DNA from: Lysobacter auxotrophicus
Lineage (GTDB): Bacteria; Pseudomonadota; Gammaproteobacteria; Xanthomonadales; Xanthomonadaceae
DNA length: 64,000 nucleotides
Direction: 5' to 3'
Assembly: GCF_027924565.1 (NCBI RefSeq)
Contig: NZ_AP027041.1
Location: forward strand, 2,604,001-2,668,000
A model generated the notes under the pieces. It saw only the letters and a program-made list of their open reading frames with translations. It did no database searches and was not told the DNA's origin. Of the stretch, positions 39,694 through 48,605 are shown one piece after another. Within the stretch, counting starts at the first letter, position 1. Every line of letters begins with the position of its first letter. The translations under genes and the position numbers were made by a program.

Positions 39694-40986
39694 TCAGCCC
39701 GTGAATCGGCCCAGTCGTTCCTTCAACGCATCCAGGCGGAGCTCACCCGACGCGCCGGGCGACACGCGCGCGCGCAGGCTCGCGTCCGGATCCCCTTCCG
39801 CCCAGCGGGCAGGATCGGCGGCCAGCCGGTAGGCCTCGCGGAACGGGAGCCCGTCGCGCGCCATGTCGACGGCCAGGTCCGTCGCATACATCGACGGGTC
39901 GAGCGCGTGGCGCATGCGGTCGGTCTTCCATTCCAGGTTGCGCAGCAGGTCCGGCAGCAGTTCCAGGGCGTCGAGGCCACGGCCGAATGCGTGGAAGATC
40001 GCTCCCTTCGAGAACTGCAGGTCGCGGTGATAGCCCGATGGCAGCGACAGCAGCTGTTCGATCTCGGTGCGGGCCGCCGCGGCGGCGGAGTAGCTCGCGC
40101 GCATCAGTTCGATCACGTCGGGATTGCGCTTGTTCGGCATGATCGAGCTGCCGGTGGTGTACTGCGACGGCAGCGCGACGAAGCCGAATTCGGCACTCGT
40201 GAACAGGCTCAGGTCCCACGCGAGGCGGCGCAGGTCGAGCAGCGCGGAGGTCAGCGCCTCGATGGCGGCCATCTCGAACTTGCCGCGCGACAGCTGCGCG
40301 TACGCGGCCGACACCTGCATCCGCCCGAAGCCCAGCGCCTGCGTGGTGTGGTCGCGCGCGAGCGGCAGGTTCACGCCGTAACCGGCGGCGCTGCCGAGCG
40401 GATTCGCATCGACCCACGCCAGCGTGTCGGCCGCGCGCTGGGCGTCGTCGATGAAGCCTTCGGCCCACGCGGCCCACCACATTCCCAGCGACGACACGAC
40501 GGCGCGCTGCAGGTGCGTGTAACCCGGCAGGGGGACGCCCTGCTCCGCTTCGGCGCGGGCCAGCGCGACCTGCGCGCTTTCGCGGCACGTCGCGAGAAGA
40601 CGCGACAGGCGATCCTTCAGCCACAAACGCGTGGCGACGAGGATCTGGTCGTTGCGGCTTCGGCCGGTATGGATCTTCTTGCCGGCATCGCCGAGGCGTT
40701 CGACCAGTCGCGCCTCGATCGCCGAGTGTCCGTCCTCGTACTGCTCGTCGAGGACGAAGCGGCGGGCGGTGAAATCGTCAGCCAGCACGCTCAGCTCGCG
40801 CTCGAGTCCGGCGAGTTCGTCCGCGGTGAGGATGCCGATCTGCTGCAGGCCCTGCGCGTGCGCGCGGCTGGCCTGGATGTCGAACACGAAGAACTCGCGA
40901 TCGAGGATCACGTCCTCGCCGGCGAGGAACTTCTGGATCCGCGCGTCGACCTTGACGCCGGGTTTCTGCCACAACAGATCGGACAT
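39694..40986 (-). CDS. argH: Argininosuccinate lyase
   Basis: A 430-residue fumarase-superfamily enzyme releasing arginine and fumarate. The signature [12 protein letters not shown] carries the catalytic Ser loop, TGRSRNDQ and GYTHLQRA are the other conserved blocks, and [11 protein letters not shown] is near the N-terminus. It follows argC by 60 bases. Length is slightly shorter than E. coli ArgH (about 457) because of a compact C-terminus. Confidence 0.96.
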
Positions 40987-41046
40987 GACGGCCTCGATAT
41001 TCCGTGATCTTCGTACTCGTCCGCGCTGGCGCGGACGTCGCTGGAA

Positions 41047-42015
41047 CTATGCCGCGTGACGCACCTGCGGAACGCCCCGGTTCTCGTCGAAACCGAACGC
41101 CAGGTTGAGGTTCTGCAGCGCCTGCGTTGCCGCGCCCTTGAGCAGGTTGTCCTCGGTCGCGACCACGATCAGGCGACGGCCATCGGGCGACAGCGTGAAT
41201 CCGCCGATCTCCACGTGATGCCGCCCGGCGATGCGGCTCACCCACGGCGCATCGTCGAGCACGTCGACGAGCGGCTCGCCCGCGTAGCGCTCGCGATAGC
41301 GTGCCATTACGGCGTCGCGTTCGAAGGCCGTGGAAAGCGGCAGATTTGCGGTGATGGTCAAACCGCGGAAGTGCGGCGCGACGTGCGGCAGGAACTGCAC
41401 CTCGTGGCCGAGCTGCCGCGTGACCTCGCGTTCGTGCACGTGGTTGGTCAGCGCGTATGGCATCAGGTTGTCGCGCAGTTTATCGGGATCGTTCTTGTCC
41501 GACGGCGACGTGCCCGCGCCCGAATAACCCGACACGCCGAAGCACTGTACCGGGCCGGCAAGCGCATCGAGCATCGGCGCCACGGCAAGCTGCATCGCCG
41601 TCGCGTAACAGCCGGGATTGCTGATGCGACGCTGGCCGGCGTACTTCGCGCGCGTGAGTTCAGGCAGGCCGTAGTACCACGCGTCGTCGAAGCGGTAGTC
41701 GGCCGAGAGATCGACGATCACGGGATCCATGCCTGCCGCGTCGAATGCCGCCACCGCCGAGGCCGCCTTCCCGTTCGGTAGCGCGAGCACGACGGCGTCG
41801 GCACCAAAATTCGGCAGTTCGTCGTTGGACGGCGACACATAACGCAGCCCGGGATCGATGCCCACCACGCCTTCGAACTGATCGGCGACGCGGTGGCCGA
41901 CGAGTTCGCGCGAGGACACGAACGCGAGTTCGAAATCCGGGTGGCCGGCGATGAGCCGGATGAGTTCGGCGCCGACGTATCCACGCGCGCCGACGATGCC
42001 AACGGACCTGCTCAC
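41047..42015 (-). CDS. argC: N-acetyl-gamma-glutamyl-phosphate reductase
   Basis: A 322-residue NADPH enzyme. The N-terminal Rossmann motif is [16 protein letters not shown], the catalytic Cys lies in [10 protein letters not shown], and the His region is HVAPHFRGL. The start is GTG 42015, overlapping the GNAT stop as GTGA. It produces N-acetylglutamate semialdehyde in the acetylated arginine pathway. Confidence 0.96.
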
Positions 42016-42635
42016 GCGTGGTCGCTCCCCTGTTCGTGTTGTTGCAGCCGGTGCTGGAGATTGCGCTTCACCGCCGGCCATTCGGATTCGATGATGGAAA
42101 AGGCCACCGTGTCTCGCACGCTGCCGTCGGCATGGCGGCGGTGGCTGCGCAGCACGCCGTCCTGCTTCGCGCCCAGGCGCGCGATGGCCGCGCGCGAGGC
42201 GTGGTTGAACCAGCTGGTTTCGAAGCCCACGCACACGCAGCCCATCGTCTCGAACGCGTGCGTGAGCAGCAACAGCTTGGCCTGCGTGTTCAGCCCGGTG
42301 CGCTGCACGCGCGGGGCATAGAACGTGTAGCCGATCTGCACGCGCGGGACAGCCGGATCGAGGTCGTAGAAACGCGTGCAGCCGACCACTTCGCCGTGCG
42401 CGTCGTGCACGGCGAATGCGAGGGCACGGCCCTGCGACTGCATCTGGAGCGCCGAGGCGATGTAGGCCTCCACGTCCTGCGGCGCGGGCACGTTCGTGTA
42501 CCACAGGCGCGACAGCTCGCCATCGCCGAGCGCGTCGCGCAGGCCGGTGGCGTGCTGCGCGCGCAGCGGTTCCAACGCGACATGCTGGCCGCGCAGGTTG
42601 GGAACGGTGTTCCAGTGGTCGACTTGCGCGCCCAT
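42012..42635 (-). CDS. RimJ/RimL-type GNAT acetyltransferase inside the arginine operon
   Basis: A 207-residue GNAT protein related to ribosomal-protein acetyltransferases: [19 protein letters not shown] at the start, [21 protein letters not shown] as the acetyl-CoA site region and [18 protein letters not shown] further on. It is wedged between the NAGS/kinase gene (7 bases before) and argC (4-base overlap), so it is made with the arginine enzymes. Its substrate is unknown. An accessory role in acetyl transfer or protein acetylation is possible. Confidence 0.85.
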
Positions 42636-42642
42636 CGCGTCA

Positions 42643-43965
42643 TCAGTCCTTCAACGTCGCGGTGCGTCCGCCGGAGTGCGCCACGCAGCGGGCGATCTCG
42701 TCGAACGATTCAATGCCATACCAGAACACCTTCCACTTTTCCTGCTTCAGGCAGCCATCGGACTCGGCGTAATAAAACGGATTGACCGGGTTGCCGTGCC
42801 GCGAGCGCCAGAACAGGCGCGGGTTCTGTTCGCGCATCACCTGCCAGACCGCGCGGCCGAGTCCCTCGCCCTGCGCTTCGTCGAGCACGGCGAACTTGTC
42901 CAGATAGATGCCGGCATCCTCGCTGGTGAGGATCACCGCCGCGCGATAGTTCTCGCTCACGTACGCGCGATGCAGCGTAGTGCGCTCGAAGTAGTCCGGC
43001 AGCAGACGGCGGCCGAATGCGGATTCGATGAGTTCGCGCAAACGTTCGAGGTCGAGCTCGTCCCACTTCGACACCTGCAGCACGCGTTCGCCGCGACGCA
43101 CCAGCGTGCCCGAGCCCTTGTGCGTGAACAGCTCCTTCGCCAGCTCGCTCGGCTTGGTGATCGAGACCGAGGAGGTCAGCGGCAGCTTGTCGAGCAGGTC
43201 CTTGATCTGCTCGATCTTCACGCGCATGCCACCGTTGATCCACGGCTGCGACATCAGGTGGTCGTACTCGGTCGACAGGTTGATCGAATCGATCACCCGG
43301 CCGTTGTCGTCGAGCAGGCCGCCGGTGCCGGTGAGGAAGACGATCTTGTACGGCTGCAGCTTCTGCACCAGTTCGTTGGCGGCGAAGTCGGCATTGACGT
43401 TGAGGATCTGCCCGGACGCGGTTTCGCCCAGGCTTGCGATCACCGGAATCGAGCCCGCACGCAGGCTGGCTTCGATCGGCGCGAGGTTCACGCGCTTCAC
43501 TTCGCCGACCAGCCCGTAGGTGTCGCGGTCGAGGTAGTCGGATTCGAACACGCCCGAGACGATCGACGTCGCGCGCGCATCGAACGCCTGCAGCGCTTCG
43601 ACGAGTTTCAGGTTCTGCGACTGGAACACGCGTCGCACGATCGCGAGCGCTTCGGGCGAGGTGACGCGCAGGCCGTTGACCGTCTGCTTGACGATGCCGG
43701 CGGCGGACAGTTCCTCGTCCAGCTGCGGGCCGGCGCCGTGGATGACGATGGGGGTGAGCCCCACGTCCTGCAGGAACGCGAGCGATGAGGTCAGCGCTTC
43801 GAGGTCGTCGCGCAGCACCGCGCCGCCGACCTTCACCACGGCGAAGCGCTTGGCGTCCAGCTGCGAGAAGCGCTTGAGGTATTGCGAGATTTCCTTCGCG
43901 CTGGCCATGCTCGAAAGCAGGCGCACGATGGTCTGGCGGGTCTGGATGTCTCGTGTGTCGTTCAC
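42643..43965 (-). CDS. argB: Bifunctional N-acetylglutamate synthase/kinase (NAGS-K)
   Basis: A 440-residue fusion. The amino-acid kinase domain (about 1-285) has [33 protein letters not shown] and [10 protein letters not shown]. The C-terminal GNAT-type synthase domain (about 290-440) has [17 protein letters not shown] and [21 protein letters not shown]. This fused xanthomonad form resembles vertebrate NAGS and carries both the first and second steps of arginine synthesis; arginine usually inhibits it. It sits between argE' and the GNAT gene. Confidence 0.95.
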
Positions 43966-43978
43966 GTGGTGCTGTCCT

Positions 43979-44007
43979 GTAGCCCGGGTAAGCGCAGCCC
44001 ACCCGGG
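43979..44007. repeat. GTAG-type palindromic repeat inside the arg operon
   Basis: GTAGCCCGGGTAAGCGCAGC...ACCCGGG is one REP-like unit with a 7-bp CCCGGGT/ACCCGGG stem. It lies in the 84-base gap between argE' and the NAGS-K gene, so it would be within the operon mRNA, where such hairpins often protect or separate message segments. Confidence 0.75.
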
Positions 44008-44049
44008 AATCGCGGCGCCGATGCGGCTGGTTGCCGCATCGCGCTGCAG

Positions 44050-45135
44050 TCAATGTTCGAGGATGCGGGTTACCGATTCGGTATAGCGCTGCAACTGCTC
44101 CAGCGCGACCCATTCGTCGGCGGTATGCGCCTGCGCGATGTCGCCGGGGCCGTAGACGATCGCGGTGAGGCCGGCGGCAGAGAACAGCGACGCTTCGGTC
44201 CAGAAATCCACCGCATTGCCGATCGGCAAACCCAGCGCGTCGGCGAGGTCGCGCGCCTCCAGGCGGCGATTCTCCGCATCGGCGATGTCGCCCGACGGCA
44301 GCGACGGACCGCGGAAGGTTTCCTCGTAGCGCTCCACCGCGCCGGCTTCGACCAGCGTGCCGAAACGCTCGTGCAGCGCATCGATCGACATCGACGGCAG
44401 CGGGCGAAACCCAAAACGCAGCTCGGCGCTGGGCGCGATCATGTTCGCCTTGATCCCGCCTTCCACGCGGCCGATGTTGAAGCGCAGGCCCGTCAAACCA
44501 CCGAAACGCTGGTGCGCCTGGCTTTCGACGAAATCCAGCGCGTGGCCGCCCCAGCGGATCGCCTGATGCAACGCGCTGGCCTGCATCGCGTTCGCGCCCG
44601 ATGCATGCCCGGCGATGCCGCGGAACTTCATCAGCACCGAACTGATGCCGCGGTGCGCGAGCACCGCCTCGCACTTCGTCGGCTCGGCGACGATCACGTC
44701 CTGGAACGCATGCGCGGTGGCGAGGAACGCCGCGATGCAGCGGGCATCGTTGGCTTCCTCGTCGGTGGAGAACAGGAACGCGGCATCGCCCTTCGTGCGC
44801 GATGCCGCGGTGACCAGCCCCGCGGCGGCGCCCTTGATGTCGCACGCGCCCAGGCCGATGGCCCGGTCGCCGGTGACGCGCAGCACGTGCGGATCGGCGC
44901 TCCACGCTTCCGACGACGGCACGGTGTCCAGGTGCACGTTGAACAGGCGGTTCGGATTGCCGCGCACCGCGAGCATCGACACGGCGCCGGCACCGTGGTC
45001 GACGACCTCGATGCGGAAGCCGTGAAGCTGCGTGCGCAGGTAATCGAAAATGCCGCCCGTGCCGATATCGCGCGGCGGGTTGCGCGTGTCGAAGGACACC
45101 AGCGCGTCGAGATGTTGGAGGGTCTGGTCGAGCAT
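44050..45135 (-). CDS. argE: N-acetyl-L-citrulline deacetylase (ArgE')
   Basis: A 361-residue M20-family zinc hydrolase. Metal ligands are seen in FNVHLDTVP (His, Asp), GACDIKGAAAG, STDEEAND and the C-terminal VYGPGDIAQAHTADEWV; the dimerisation domain covers about 165-275. In Xanthomonas-type operons containing AOTCase this enzyme removes acetate from N-acetylcitrulline instead of acetylornithine. The neighbouring N-acetylornithine carbamoyltransferase supports that reading. Confidence 0.9.
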   Translation of the reverse strand: MLDQTLQHLDALVSFDTRNPPRDIGTGGIFDYLRTQLHGFRIEVVDHGAGAVSMLAVRGNPNRLFNVHLDTVPSSEAWSADPHVLRVTGDRAIGLGACDIKGAAAGLVTAASRTKGDAAFLFSTDEEANDARCIAAFLATAHAFQDVIVAEPTKCEAVLAHRGISSVLMKFRGIAGHASGANAMQASALHQAIRWGGHALDFVESQAHQRFGGLTGLRFNIGRVEGGIKANMIAPSAELRFGFRPLPSMSIDALHERFGTLVEAGAVERYEETFRGPSLPSGDIADAENRRLEARDLADALGLPIGNAVDFWTEASLFSAAGLTAIVYGPGDIAQAHTADEWVALEQLQRYTESVTRILEH

Positions 45136-45210
45136 GTCGTATGCGGGAGTGAGTGGAGAGGAATGGGGAGCGAGCCGTTTCGCCCGCTTCCCGCTGCTGT
45201 TCCTCGCGTT

Positions 45211-46458
45211 TCAGCCCTTCCGGTTGACCTCGGCCCACAGGGTGCTGCTCATGCCGAACAGCTTGATGAAGCCTTCGGCCTCCGCCACGCCCCAGTCGGC
45301 CGCCTGCGCGTAGGTCGCGCCCTTAGCATTGAGGATGTGCCTGGAGTCGATCGCCACCGCGGTGACGTTGCCGCCCTGCGTTTCCAGCGTGACTTCGCCG
45401 TTGACGGTCGACTGGCTCGACTGCAGGAACGCTTCCAGGTCGGTCTTCAGCGGATCGTGGAAGAAGCCTTCGTACACCAGCTCCACCCACTTGCGCGCGA
45501 CTTCGGGCTTGAAGCGGTTCTGCTGCTTGCTCAGCACGGCTTCCTCCAGCGCGCGATGCGCGGCGAGCAGCGCAGTCAGGCCCGGCGCTTCGAAGATGAT
45601 GCGGCCCTTCAGGCCGATCGTCGTGTCGCCCGTGTACAAACCGCGGCCCACGCCGTACTGCGCGAACAGGCCGTTGAGCTTGGCGAGCATCGCATGGCCT
45701 TCGATCTTCTGGCCGTCGAGCGTCACCGCTTCCCCGTTGACGAAGCCGATCTTCACGCGCAGCGGCTGCGTCGGCCATTCGCTGCGCGGCTTGCACCAGC
45801 CGATCGCGCCTTCGCCCGGCGCCTGCCAGCGGTCGATCTCGCCGCCGGACATCGTCAGGCCCAGCAGGTTCTCGTTGATCGTGTACGCCTTCTGCTTGGC
45901 GCGAACGCCGAAACCGCGGTCTTCGAGGTACTTCTGTTCGTAGGCGCGGACCTCGGTGTGTTCCTTCTGGATCTCGCGGATCGGCGCCACGATTTCATAG
46001 TCGCCCAGCGCCTTCACCGCCAGGTCGAAACGCACCTGGTCGTTGCCCATGCCCGTGCAGCCGTGCGCGATGGCCTTGGTGCCCAGCTCGTTGCAACGCT
46101 TCAGCGCGGCATCGACGATGAGATAACGATCCGACACCAGCAGCGGATACTGCGACTGGTAGCCTTCGCCCGCCCACACGAACGGCTTGACGAAGCCTTC
46201 CCAGATCGCCGGGCCGCCGTCGACGGTGACGTGCGAGGCCACGCCGAGCTCCGCGGCGCGCTGTTCGATGAAGGCGCGTTCTTCCGCGTCCACGCCGCCG
46301 GTGTCGGCGAACACGGTGTGCACGTTCCAGCCGCGCTCCTTCAGGTACGGAACGCAGAAGCTGGTGTCGAGGCCGCCGGAGAAGGCGAGGACGATGTCCC
46401 TGGCGCCATGACTCGGGGTTTGGGATTCGGGATTCGTGGAAGCGTTCTGCTGGGACAT
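45211..46458 (-). CDS. argG: Argininosuccinate synthase
   Basis: A 415-residue enzyme joining citrulline and aspartate with ATP. The P-loop-like [18 protein letters not shown] binds [19 protein letters not shown] and [18 protein letters not shown] are typical of the long (E. coli-like) branch. The N-terminal 20 residues are Ser/Thr/Asn-rich and may be variable. The start is ATG 46458. It follows argF' by 70 bases that contain GATTCGGGATTCG-like repeats. Confidence 0.95.
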
Positions 46459-46528
46459 GGGGGGCTCTATTTCGAAGAGAGGTGGAGAACTGGATCGCGA
46501 CTGTTTTTTCGAAATCGCAATTAGCGAA

Positions 46529-47548
46529 TCACGAATCACGGCCCTGCATCAGCGCGGCCATGATGGCCTTCTGCACGTGCAGGCGATTCTCGGCTTCGTC
46601 AATGGCGATGCACTGCGGCGAATCCATCACCGCGTCGGTGGCCTTCACGTTCCGGCGCAGCGGCAGGCAGTGGCTGAAGACGCCGTTGTTGGTCAGCGCC
46701 ATCTTCGCCTCGTCGACGATAAAGTGCTTGAACTCCTCGCGGATAGGCTTTTCCGGCTCCCAGTTGCCGAAGAACGGCAGCGCGCCCCAGCTCTTCGCGT
46801 ACACGACGTCGGCGCCGTTGTACGCGCTTTCGATGTCGTGGCTGACGCGGAACGAACCGCCGCTCTCGGCGACGTTGCGCTCCGCCCAGCCGATGTAGCG
46901 ATCATCCAGCACGTATTGCGGCGTGGGACACAGCAGCGTGACGTCCATGCCCATGCGCGTGGCGATCGTCAGCGCGGAATTCGCCACGGCGGTGTTGAGC
47001 GGCTTGGGGTGGTAGGTCCAGGTCAGCACGTACTTCTTGCCGCGCAGGTCGCTCGTGCCGAAGTGCTCCTGCAGCGCGAGGATGTGCGCGAGTTCCTGGC
47101 ACGGGTGCGTGATCGTCTCCATGTTGATCACCGGCACCGGCGAGTACTTCGCGAAGCTGTTGAGCACGATGTCCTGGCGGTCGTACTGCCAGTCGACGAA
47201 CTTCGGGAACGCGCGCACGCCGATCAGGTCGACGTAGCGGCCCAGCACGCGCGCGACTTCGGCGATGTGCTCCTCGGTGTCGCCGTCCATGACCGTGCCG
47301 AGGTTGAACTCGATCGGCCACGCGTCCTTGCCCGGCTGCAGCACCACGGCATGGCCGCCGAGCTGGAAGGCGCCCAGTTCGAAGCTGGTGCGCGTGCGCA
47401 TCGACGGATTGAAGAACACCAGCGCGATCGACTTGCCGCGGAGCTGGTCGCCGAGCTTGCTGCGCTTGAACCGCGCGGCCTGCGCGAGCAGCGCGTCGAG
47501 GTCGTCGCGCGACCAGTCCTGGGTATTGAGGAAGTGCCTGAGGGTCAT
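46529..47548 (-). CDS. argF: N-acetylornithine carbamoyltransferase (ArgF')
   Basis: A 339-residue carbamoyltransferase. The carbamoyl-phosphate site is SMRTRTSFE, with THPCQELAH and SHCLPLRRN further on. The Lys in VKATDAVMD is the position carboxylated in Xanthomonas AOTCase, and the long loop [15 protein letters not shown] is typical of AOTCase and unlike ornithine enzymes. It converts N-acetylornithine to N-acetylcitrulline. It is the first gene of the arginine block and is preceded by the attenuator-like leader at 47589-47709. Confidence 0.95.
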
Positions 47549-47588
47549 CGACTGCGTTCCGGTGGGGAGTGGATCGCTGGGCCGAAAA

Positions 47589-47620
47589 GCAAAAAAGCCC
47601 AGCGCGTAGGCTGGGCTTTT
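47589..47620 (-). terminator. Strong intrinsic terminator in the arg operon leader (attenuator)
   Basis: Read on the minus strand, AAAAGCCCAGC and GCTGGGCTTTT form an 11-bp stem (47593-47620) with a 6-base loop, followed by a T-rich run (TTTTTTGCTTTT). It lies about 40 bases before the argF' ATG and after a short ORF, so it would stop the operon transcript unless prevented. The 5' arm (plus coordinates 47610-47616) can instead pair with GCTGGGT of the upstream ORF end (47664-47670), as an attenuator would. Confidence 0.85.
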
Positions 47621-47661
47621 CGTGTGTCACTTCGCCTGTTGCGAATGGCGCGTGCGACCGT

Positions 47662-47709
47662 CTACCCAGCGGATTGGTGGGTGTACGGTCGGCGCGCGCG
47701 CGAGGTCAT
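47662..47709 (-). CDS. Candidate arginine-rich leader peptide of the arg operon
   Basis: A 15-codon ORF reading MTSRARRPYTHQSAG, with three Arg codons at positions 4, 6 and 7. Its stop codon overlaps the segment GCTGGGT that can pair with the terminator arm downstream. ACCCA at 47678-47682, just after the Arg codons, can pair with TGGGT at the ORF end. This gives the classical 1:2, 2:3 and 3:4 alternatives. A GGCGG lies five bases before the ATG; in-frame ATGs at 47721 and 47766 are possible longer starts. Translation is inferred, not shown. Confidence 0.55.
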   Translation of the reverse strand: MTSRARRPYTHQSAG

Positions 47710-47947
47710 CCCCGCCGCCATCCAGGCGGAGGTGAGCACGTCGGCGTCGGCGTAAAGGGGGTTCATGAGGGGGCGAATGCTCGCACGCGATGGAAGGCGG
47801 CGCAACCCATTTGTGGCGCGCAGTTGCAATGGGAAGGTTTCGGCCCCGCGGGAATGGAGCGATCCGGCAAGCCCGCGCGTCATGCCAACGTCGCGTGGGT
47901 ACCCGCTTTCGCGGGGACGATGATCCGGCAAGGCACGCGGGCCGGAC
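47710..47947. other. Upstream part of the arg operon leader, with one hairpin repeat
   Basis: The 399-base region 47549-47947 has no conventional gene. Its lower part is the attenuator and leader ORF. The rest is GC-rich, with a CCCGCTTTCGCGGG hairpin at 47902-47915 (the CTTTCG repeat family) close to the stop of the neighbouring exported-protein gene. A promoter for the arg operon should lie here, but I cannot define convincing -35 and -10 boxes. Confidence 0.5.
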
Positions 47948-48445
47948 CTATCGGCTTCGTGGCGGCTGTACGACCGGCGTCACGGAGACGCGGATGCGCA
48001 GGCGGTTGCCCGGATCGTCCGGCAGGCGCGAGCGGTACTTGGCGCCCTTGTAGGTGTAGTCGACGTCGTAGGCGATCGGGCGTCGGAACTCGCGCTCGAC
48101 CGTCACCGGCTTGCAGTCGGGGACCACCGCGGGCTTGTCGGGCTTTTCCTCGCGGCCGAGCGCTTCCTTCACCGCACCCAGGGCGCGCGACAGCTTGGAG
48201 TCGCCCTTGGCTTCCTCGCACTGTTCCTCGACCGAGCTCGCCTTCAGCGTCTGGTAGACCGGCGTCACGCGCAGCACCTGGGCGTAATCGAAGCGGACGT
48301 TCTCCGCCTGGATGACCGTGGTCTGCGTCGGTGCCGCCTGCTGCGCCTGCGCCGCTGCCGCCCACAGGACCGCCATGGCCATCACGGCGATGCGCCCCTG
48401 CGAGGGAGCCGCTTTCGCCGACAGGGACGGAACTGGAGGGGCCAT
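47948..48445 (-). CDS. Small exported protein of unknown function
   Basis: A 165-residue protein with a signal sequence (AVMAMAVLWAAAAQA then QQA). Two Cys residues (EQCEEAK and PDCKPV) could form a periplasmic disulfide. The C-terminal segment DYTYKGAKYRSRLPDDPGNR followed by LRIRVSVTP resembles the end of 17-kDa/glycine-zipper-type envelope proteins, here without a glycine zipper. It is not recognised as a named family. ATG 48445 is chosen; a GTG lies just before it and an internal ATG would still keep the signal peptide. Confidence 0.65.
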   Translation of the reverse strand: MAPPVPSLSAKAAPSQGRIAVMAMAVLWAAAAQAQQAAPTQTTVIQAENVRFDYAQVLRVTPVYQTLKASSVEEQCEEAKGDSKLSRALGAVKEALGREEKPDKPAVVPDCKPVTVEREFRRPIAYDVDYTYKGAKYRSRLPDDPGNRLRIRVSVTPVVQPPRSR

Positions 48446-48605
48446 CACGCTCGCAAGGTGGGGAAATGTTCAGAAAGTGTAAGCGGATACGGTGGGCCGG
48501 TTCTGAACCCCGCCTTTAGCTTGCCGCCGCCGGCCGCCTCGACCGACCCGCGTCGCGCGTCCGGGCGCTGCCGCTAGAATGGCCGGCACTTCCGGCGGTA
48601 ACCCC

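Follow-up and report, generated by a model that had tools for sequence, protein, structure and literature searches.

Synthesis of arginine in gammaproteobacteria is usually described as an ArgR system. In T-boxes, tRNA binds the RNA directly and no leader peptide takes part, which sets them apart from the leader described here. Arginine T-boxes resemble it in controlling arginine genes at the RNA level (PMC1262725, available part). The his and trp attenuators of enteric bacteria (PMC1183508, available part, and general knowledge) have regulatory codons over segment 1, a stop codon over segment 2, mutually exclusive 2:3 and 3:4 pairings, and a terminator with a T run before the first gene. The Salmonella speF leader contains a 34-codon ORF (ORF34/SpeFL) with two consecutive Arg codons whose translation reports arginine, and according to the accessible text it acts on ornithine decarboxylase through Rho-dependent termination, release of the RBS and RNase G (PMC6386406). 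In Staphylococcus aureus, an Arg codon of the uORF rbfL senses arginine limitation, and the excerpt at hand describes pausing that blocks the rbf ribosome site and lowers expression, with no terminator switch (PMC13009471).

We analyzed a 64,000-nucleotide stretch of Lysobacter auxotrophicus DNA (the window), in which a leader precedes argF'-argG-argE'-argB-argC-argH. The leader shares the four architectural elements of the his and trp attenuators, and differs from them in having arginine codons and an arginine operon, a predicted near-leaderless start, a conserved non-Arg peptide core, a weak 1:2 pairing in most species, and no detected ArgR. It resembles SpeFL in the 34-codon ORF and the two consecutive Arg codons, but here an intrinsic terminator stands before biosynthesis genes. 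An earlier note made from the sequence of this stretch had read the locus as an arginine attenuator, and this interpretation is supported by conservation, by the stop codon lying over segment 2, and by covarying 2:3 and 3:4 pairings. Because of its conservation, geometry and covariation, the leader very probably works as a ribosome-mediated transcription attenuator through which the charging of tRNA-Arg governs the operon; what we infer from this architecture is the response to arginine, where transcription starts and in which order the steps follow. The features are collected in Table 1.

Table 1. Leader elements and arginine cluster genes, with positions in the window
Feature	Position	Strand	Details
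Promoter-like site	47777..47805	-	TTGCGC (47800-47805), 17-nt spacer, GAGCAT (47777-47782)
Leader peptide ORF	47662..47766	-	34 codons, MNPLYADADVLTSAWMAAGMTSRARRPYTHQSAG, stop TAG 47662-47664; start codon predicted
Conserved peptide core Met16-Ser22	47701..47721	-	MAAGMTS, directly 5' of Arg codons (codon table)
Regulatory codons	47689..47700	-	Arg23 CGC (47698-47700), Ala24, Arg25 CGC (47692-47694), Arg26 CGA (47689-47691)
Segment 1	47678..47690	-	GACCG (47686-47690) and ACCCA (47678-47682); 1:2 hairpin -19.7 kcal/mol
Segment 2	47656..47670	-	GCTGGGT (47664-47670, overlaps stop codon) with CGGTC (47656-47660)
Segment 3	47610..47616	-	GCCCAGC
Intrinsic terminator 3:4	47591..47621	-	Segment 4 GCTGGGC 47597-47603; six T at 47591-47596
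argF', N-acetylornithine carbamoyltransferase	46529..47548	-	First operon gene; NCBIfam NF003384, 634.8 bits, cut-off 288
Rest of arginine cluster	39694..46539	-	NCBIfam matches above curated cut-off, except GNAT-like gene
argG	within 45211-46539	-	NCBIfam
argE'	44050-45135	-	NCBIfam
argB	42643-43965	-	NCBIfam
GNAT-like gene between argB and argC	42012-42635	-	No curated family above cut-off
argC	within 41047-42504	-	NCBIfam
argH	39694-40986	-	NCBIfam
Small conserved gene 5' of leader	47948-48448	-	Same strand, adjacent

The leader frame in the window is open upstream as far as the ATG at 47764-47766, and 47766 is most likely the start of the ORF, 10 bases 3' of the promoter-like site. A 15-codon ORF with Arg codons (MTSRARRPYTHQSAG) had been proposed in the earlier note. 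It is present, as the last 15 of the 34 codons, but its ATG is the internal Met20 (47707-47709) and the start codon probably lies further upstream. We rejected 47709 as the sole start, as 145 of 147 leaders have an in-frame ATG or GTG 12-29 codons 5' of the TSRARR core. Conservation of Met20 in 142 of 144 leaders (codon table) means that internal starts such as this one may still be used. TSRARR is invariant in all 144 leaders of families f1, f2, f3 and f12, which comprise 28 selected by the motif and 116 not selected by it (116/116, f7 excluded), and synonymous changes are seen at all six of its codons. The conservation of T, S and A exceeds what codon sensing needs and is the least explained feature of the leader. 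Three leader peptides were searched against Pfam and NCBIfam, and matched no family up to E = 10. One leader (L109) carries GCTGGGG instead of GCTGGGT, by which the stop codon is lost and the frame extends beyond the terminator; it is either a natural variant or a damaged leader.

Inspection of the RNA segments in the window located GCTGGGT, GCCCAGC, GCTGGGC and the T run exactly where the earlier note had placed them, and the 2:3 and 3:4 pairings that it named each fold alone. The proposed GC-rich hairpin with a T run is borne out as a terminator by a scan that gives 12 pairs, 6 of them G-C (z = -5.57; 0 of 200 shuffles as good), and the 2:3 hairpin has a z of -2.34 (4 of 200 shuffles). The 1:2 pairing of ACCCA with TGGGT also forms alone (z = -3.76, 0 of 200 shuffles); it is longer than had been described, as GACCG:CGGTC pairs too, and it is weak in most relatives beyond the close kin of this genome. 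The whole leader fold beats all 200 shuffles (z = -4.18). Between the terminator and the argF' start at 47548 are 42 bases. Rfam covariance models applied to the 64-kb window at gathering scores matched tRNA only, with no T-box and no other family. Aside from these elements, a second GCCCAGC is located at 47576-47582, directly 3' of the T run, which offers segment 4 a possible downstream partner as well; a repeated segment 3 no more than 45 nt past segment 4 occurs in 4 of 147 leaders (the window, L002, L085, and L184), and by eye in L001 as well. Directly 5' of the Arg codons, at 47710-47729, lies a further hairpin, CCGCC..GGCGG in the window and CCCGT..ACGGG or CCCGA..TCGGG elsewhere. Its covariation, counted for the Xanthomonas form, is modest, and a version shifted by two columns scores equally high. 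This hairpin could be a pause signal for RNA polymerase.

The earlier note had called for an alignment of leaders from relatives, and the idea survived this check. A scan of the genome collection for argF' provided the named loci, taken as the best 80 of 583 relatives and including Lysobacter, Stenotrophomonas, Xanthomonas, Pseudoxanthomonas, Luteimonas, Thermomonas and others. An ORF 5' of argF' has the TSRARR core in 80 of 80 of these loci (best 80 of 583), with Ile in place of the preceding Met in L068. Of 297 own-family genomes, 249 contain a 21-base pattern that spans the Arg codons, mostly as a single copy, and 28 of 30 fetched loci with this motif stand 119-197 nt 5' of argF' on the same strand. 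L101 and L105 were rejected as leaders, being chance matches to the motif. Lack of the exact pattern in the other 48 genomes need not mean lack of the leader, as at least two of them have it with CGACTG (L183 and L184). L101, L105 and the ArgR loci L111-L114 were excluded from all leader sets, and L115-L144 (30 loci from genomes already in the 21-base pattern set) stand outside the analysis.

A covariance model built from 55 leaders was run on 250 genomes of the order. It matched 229 of them at E <= 0.01, where matches up to about 42 bits are indistinguishable from plain terminators, and 21 of the 250 had no match. Among the matches listed are 54 own-family and 51 f12 genomes, all with E <= 1.8e-18. 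Matches of at least 49 bits come from families f1, f2, f3, f7, and f12, those of f7 being the weakest. The fetched loci stand 5' of argF' in 38 of 40 cases; two weak f11 matches (L179 and L180) have no argF' nearby and were discarded. Among 229 genomes of the class, three match at E <= 1e-7, all from the own family and none from outside the order, a null result limited by the fact that distant forms, such as that of f8, would escape the model. The scan of the own genome gave no convincing second attenuator: the next match was rejected because it scores 42 bits versus 142, and with 32 places at E <= 10, weak matches are not separable from plain terminators.

For families f4-f10, argF' positions were used to fetch 20 upstream stretches. 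An Arg-run ORF with an ATG start is present in 19 of them, and for 16 of the 20 the Arg run is better than in 400 shuffles (p <= 0.05). The runs include LRRRRR in f4, PRRRR in f6, RRLRRP in f7, ARRLRRR and VRRRRP in f8, RRRP in f9, and RRRPRPR in f10. A terminator follows these ORFs (that of L202 included), and the leader peptides are otherwise unlike between families. The reverse strand also has an ORF with 3-4 Arg in four residues in 4 of the 20 stretches. The segments of the f8 loci L195 and L196 are CCAGGTT, AACCTGG and CCAGGTT, versus GCTGGGT, ACCCAGC and GCTGGGT, respectively; the script found no strong segment 2 in the f8 loci L197-L198 and the f9 loci L199-L200. The single f5 locus (L188/L205) has neither an Arg leader nor a terminator, and its argF' is 69% identical to that of the window.

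Covariation was measured in two alignments. The first (A1) comprises the own family, 55 of 109 leaders (<90% alike). The second (A2) comprises four families, 62 of 147 leaders, with the own family thinned to <82% and with L083 and three f7 leaders removed. In A1, the 3:4 terminator covaries, with 32 both-side cells (0 of 500 shuffles), and 2:3 covariation is absent, with one both-side cell and a score of 0.088 versus 0.098 in shuffles, because segment 2 hardly varies there. In A2, 2:3 has 26 both-side cells, all at one pair, with a score of 0.187 versus 0.133 +/- 0.009 in shuffles (0 of 500), and 3:4 has 59 both-side cells at six pairs (0 of 500 shuffles), with 6 of 11 pairs changing on both sides. 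Parsimony on an argF' protein tree (144 loci, midpoint-rooted) places 12 A/G changes in segment 3 and 11 T/C changes in segment 2, 8 of them on the same branch; a cruder labelling of segment 2 gives 12, 14 and 8, respectively. The tree and the A2 covariation thus indicate that segments 2, 3, and 4 change together, as an either-or switch needs. The 2:3 covariation that the earlier note proposed to look for is therefore seen across four families, at one pair, and on the argF' tree, but not within the own family. Covariation of 1:2 is weak, and its count on A1 is affected by a one-base shift that is misaligned for some of the Lysobacter leaders. When each leader is tested singly against shuffles, 2:3 passes 0.05 in 124 of 147, but in none of three from f2 and in two of eight from f3.

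For the geometry of the ribosome, segment 2 was taken as the sequence that pairs best with segment 3, and a stalled ribosome was assumed to hold the last Arg codon in its A site and to have a footprint of 15 nt from the P site. Segment 2 then begins 8 nt downstream of the stalled ribosome in 113 of 147 leaders, and a ribosome terminating at the stop codon covers at least 80% of segment 2 in 134 of 147. In L007, L008, L047, and L054, the stop codon falls no later than the first base of GCTGGGT (L054 has GCTGGGC), and the segment is kept outside the frame. Segment 2 hence appears to be under selection as RNA, not as the final amino acids of the peptide. If only the RNA that runs from the stalled ribosome's edge through segment 3 is folded, 2:3 pairs in 140 of 147 leaders, and when folding begins at the stop codon, 3:4 forms in 143 of 147. 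Full-length folds with a stalled ribosome have 3:4 in 134 and 2:3 in 10 of 147 leaders. As 3:4 is preferred even when the ribosome is stalled, antitermination must be kinetic, acting during RNA synthesis. The 1:2 helix is present in 51 of 147 leaders folded untranslated as far as segment 3 and in 89 of 147 folded at full length, and 2:3 forms without a ribosome in 84 of 147 leaders. The weak 1:2 pairing and the ribosome-free 2:3 pairing together make default termination without translation doubtful in many species. A terminator between the ORF and the first gene was found by script in 145 of 147 leaders, and in the other two with a relaxed T count.

The promoter-like site is conserved in its spacing. 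TTGC-17-NANNAT occurs 5' of the Arg codons in 109 of 147 leaders, with 0.5 expected from shuffles, and the same pattern at any other spacer from 12 to 22 occurs in 0-6 of the 147 leaders each. A looser scan that slightly favours a spacer of 17 places the site in 139 of 145 leaders. A generic consensus scan of 47300-48300 found no promoter, and loose matches to the site across the window are at chance level (15 versus 13.7 expected). In the own family, the -10 element ends 6-10 nt 5' of the nearest upstream start codon in 108 of 113 leaders; for f12, this distance is available for 19 leaders and is 23-27 nt in 11 of them. Placed in this way relative to the start codon, the site would give a near-leaderless message in the own family, while most f12 messages would not be of this kind.

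The proposed attenuator would work as follows. RNA polymerase would start a few bases from the leader ATG, as the position of the promoter-like site suggests. When arginine is short, the ribosome would stall at Arg25-Arg26 (CGC-CGA) and cover segment 1, leaving segment 2 free to pair with segment 3; no terminator would form, and the operon would be read. When arginine is plentiful, the ribosome would reach the stop codon and cover segment 2, and the 3:4 terminator would form.

The last of the regulatory codons is CGA in 113 of the 116 leaders not picked by the TSRARR motif (f7 excluded). In 80 argF' genes (best 80 of 583 relatives), which together have 1307 Arg codons, the share of CGA is 0.84%, and across six window genes it accounts for 7 of the 181 Arg codons. 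In the Salmonella his leader, CGA is the partner with the most de-attenuation for all Arg codons except AGG, and CGU and CGC are read faster (PMC4046918, accessible portion). Fixation of CGA fits a codon chosen for slowness. Against the slow-codon reading counts the speF leader, in which rare and frequent Arg codons are reported to be equivalent in effect in the text available (PMC6386406).

We then inspected ArgR in the order. The family PF01316 (ArgR) has no match in the own genome, with control matches in 9 of 14 genomes. PF02863 (ArgR) is present in 8 of 151 genomes of the order, all of them in f11, and has no match in the own genome. In all seven f11 genomes searched, argR and argF' are on one contig, about 1.4-1.6 kb apart. 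The f11 argF' is divergent in sequence, at only 38-44% identity (L206-L212 and L111-L114). The seven f11 loci have no short Arg-run ORF with a terminator close to argF'; a weak terminator-like site is seen in two of them, at a distance of over 400 nt upstream. Attenuator and ArgR are mutually exclusive in the genomes sampled, since ArgR was found only in f11, whose seven argF' loci examined are without the leader. Family f11 looks like the holder of a replaced arginine cluster with its own repressor.

Several other readings of the leader were weighed against arginine attenuation. All 144 leaders of f1, f2, f3 and f12 keep the same T, S, and A beside the Arg codons (in 28 of them the selecting motif fixes these residues) while third positions vary, and sensing of ornithine by the SpeFL leader is known. 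Both would suit an arrest peptide, in which the nascent LTSARMAxGMTSRARR, perhaps with arginine or ornithine, sets the stall, and the peptide sequence is read beside tRNA-Arg charging. We regard this as unlikely, as families f4 and f6-f10 keep the Arg run while the rest of their peptide differs, and arrest under high arginine would raise expression, which is the wrong direction. A broader proposal holds that a single ancestral arginine attenuator replaces ArgR in most of the order, that the four-family peptide core (LTSARMAxGMTSRARR, with the slow CGA as the last Arg codon) adds a nascent-chain or trans function, and that the message is near-leaderless; we offer it tentatively, as possible but doubtful.

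The terminator could alternatively serve the upstream gene, with the Arg-rich ORF incidental to it. That gene lies on the same strand and is the syntenic, adjacent neighbour in 79 of 80 argF' loci (best 80 of 583 relatives). However, the terminator is more than 300 nt beyond the stop codon of this gene, a conserved promoter-like site and an ORF intervene, just 42 bases would remain for an argF' promoter, and Arg runs recur in the unlike leaders of six other families. This explanation is almost certainly wrong. Another candidate is an arginine riboswitch or RNA-binding protein that acts on the leader, with translation secondary, and the hairpin 5' of the Arg codons has some covariation that would agree with it, but a two-column slide scores as high. 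The window has no Rfam match except tRNA, conservation tracks codons, and the Arg codons and the stop codon are at fixed distances from segment 2, all of which make such control highly improbable. Finally, the locus may encode a trans-acting small RNA, as sRNA-Xoo5 has been described, with no attenuation. A 124-nt RNA was indeed found by 5' RACE and cloning between PXO_00354 and PXO_00353 (PMC3039613, in its available part). Conservation at the codon level, the stop codon on segment 2 and the constant position 5' of argF' make this reading very unlikely, and a terminated attenuator leader is expected to look like such an RNA; both could hold.

According to the accessible text and Table 3 of PMC3039613, sRNA-Xoo5 of Xanthomonas oryzae (2045785-2045908 in PXO99) gives blot signals of about 130 and 100 nt, is 94-100% identical across the tabulated Xanthomonas strains and is absent from Xylella. 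PXO_00353 is named there as N-acetylornithine carbamoyltransferase, and sRNA-Xoo5 is described as a small RNA, with no ORF or arginine link mentioned in that text. By its neighbourhood and rough size, sRNA-Xoo5 is probably the terminated argF' leader. In X. vasicola, the distance from the ATG to the T run is 158 nt, versus 124 nt for sRNA-Xoo5; provided that this RNA ends at the T run, its published 5' end would fall within the ORF, as a possible processing site or second start. The name sRNA-Xoo5 appears in no other paper of the open literature searched.

From gene order and spacing, argF'-argG-argE'-argB-GNAT-argC-argH would be co-transcribed. The upstream stretches of carA and argS contain no convincing Arg-run leader. 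Upstream of carA in the own genome (L213, reverse strand) there is a long near-perfect inverted repeat, CCCTTCCGTCG ... CGACGGGAAGGG, which is possibly another RNA control.

Searches of the open literature brought up no earlier description of attenuation for arginine biosynthesis or of arginine attenuation in this group. Arginine, argF, argC and argG are not mentioned in the available part of PMC2965389, and a carA motif and leader ORFs in other groups are described in that of PMC8632094. The mechanism is known; the amino acid arginine, the operon and the lineage are new as far as searched. Judged from the genomes compared, most of the sampled families have the predicted attenuator, in an order where ArgR seldom turns up. 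The fixed CGA codon allows a direct test of the synonymous-codon theory of attenuator sensitivity. Family f11, with ArgR and no leader, forms a natural experiment against the rest of the order, and the loss of the leader in f5 could reveal what replaces its control. The order that includes Xanthomonas, Stenotrophomonas and Lysobacter would then use a classical attenuator instead of ArgR, which would explain feedback on the operon and reinterpret a published small RNA.
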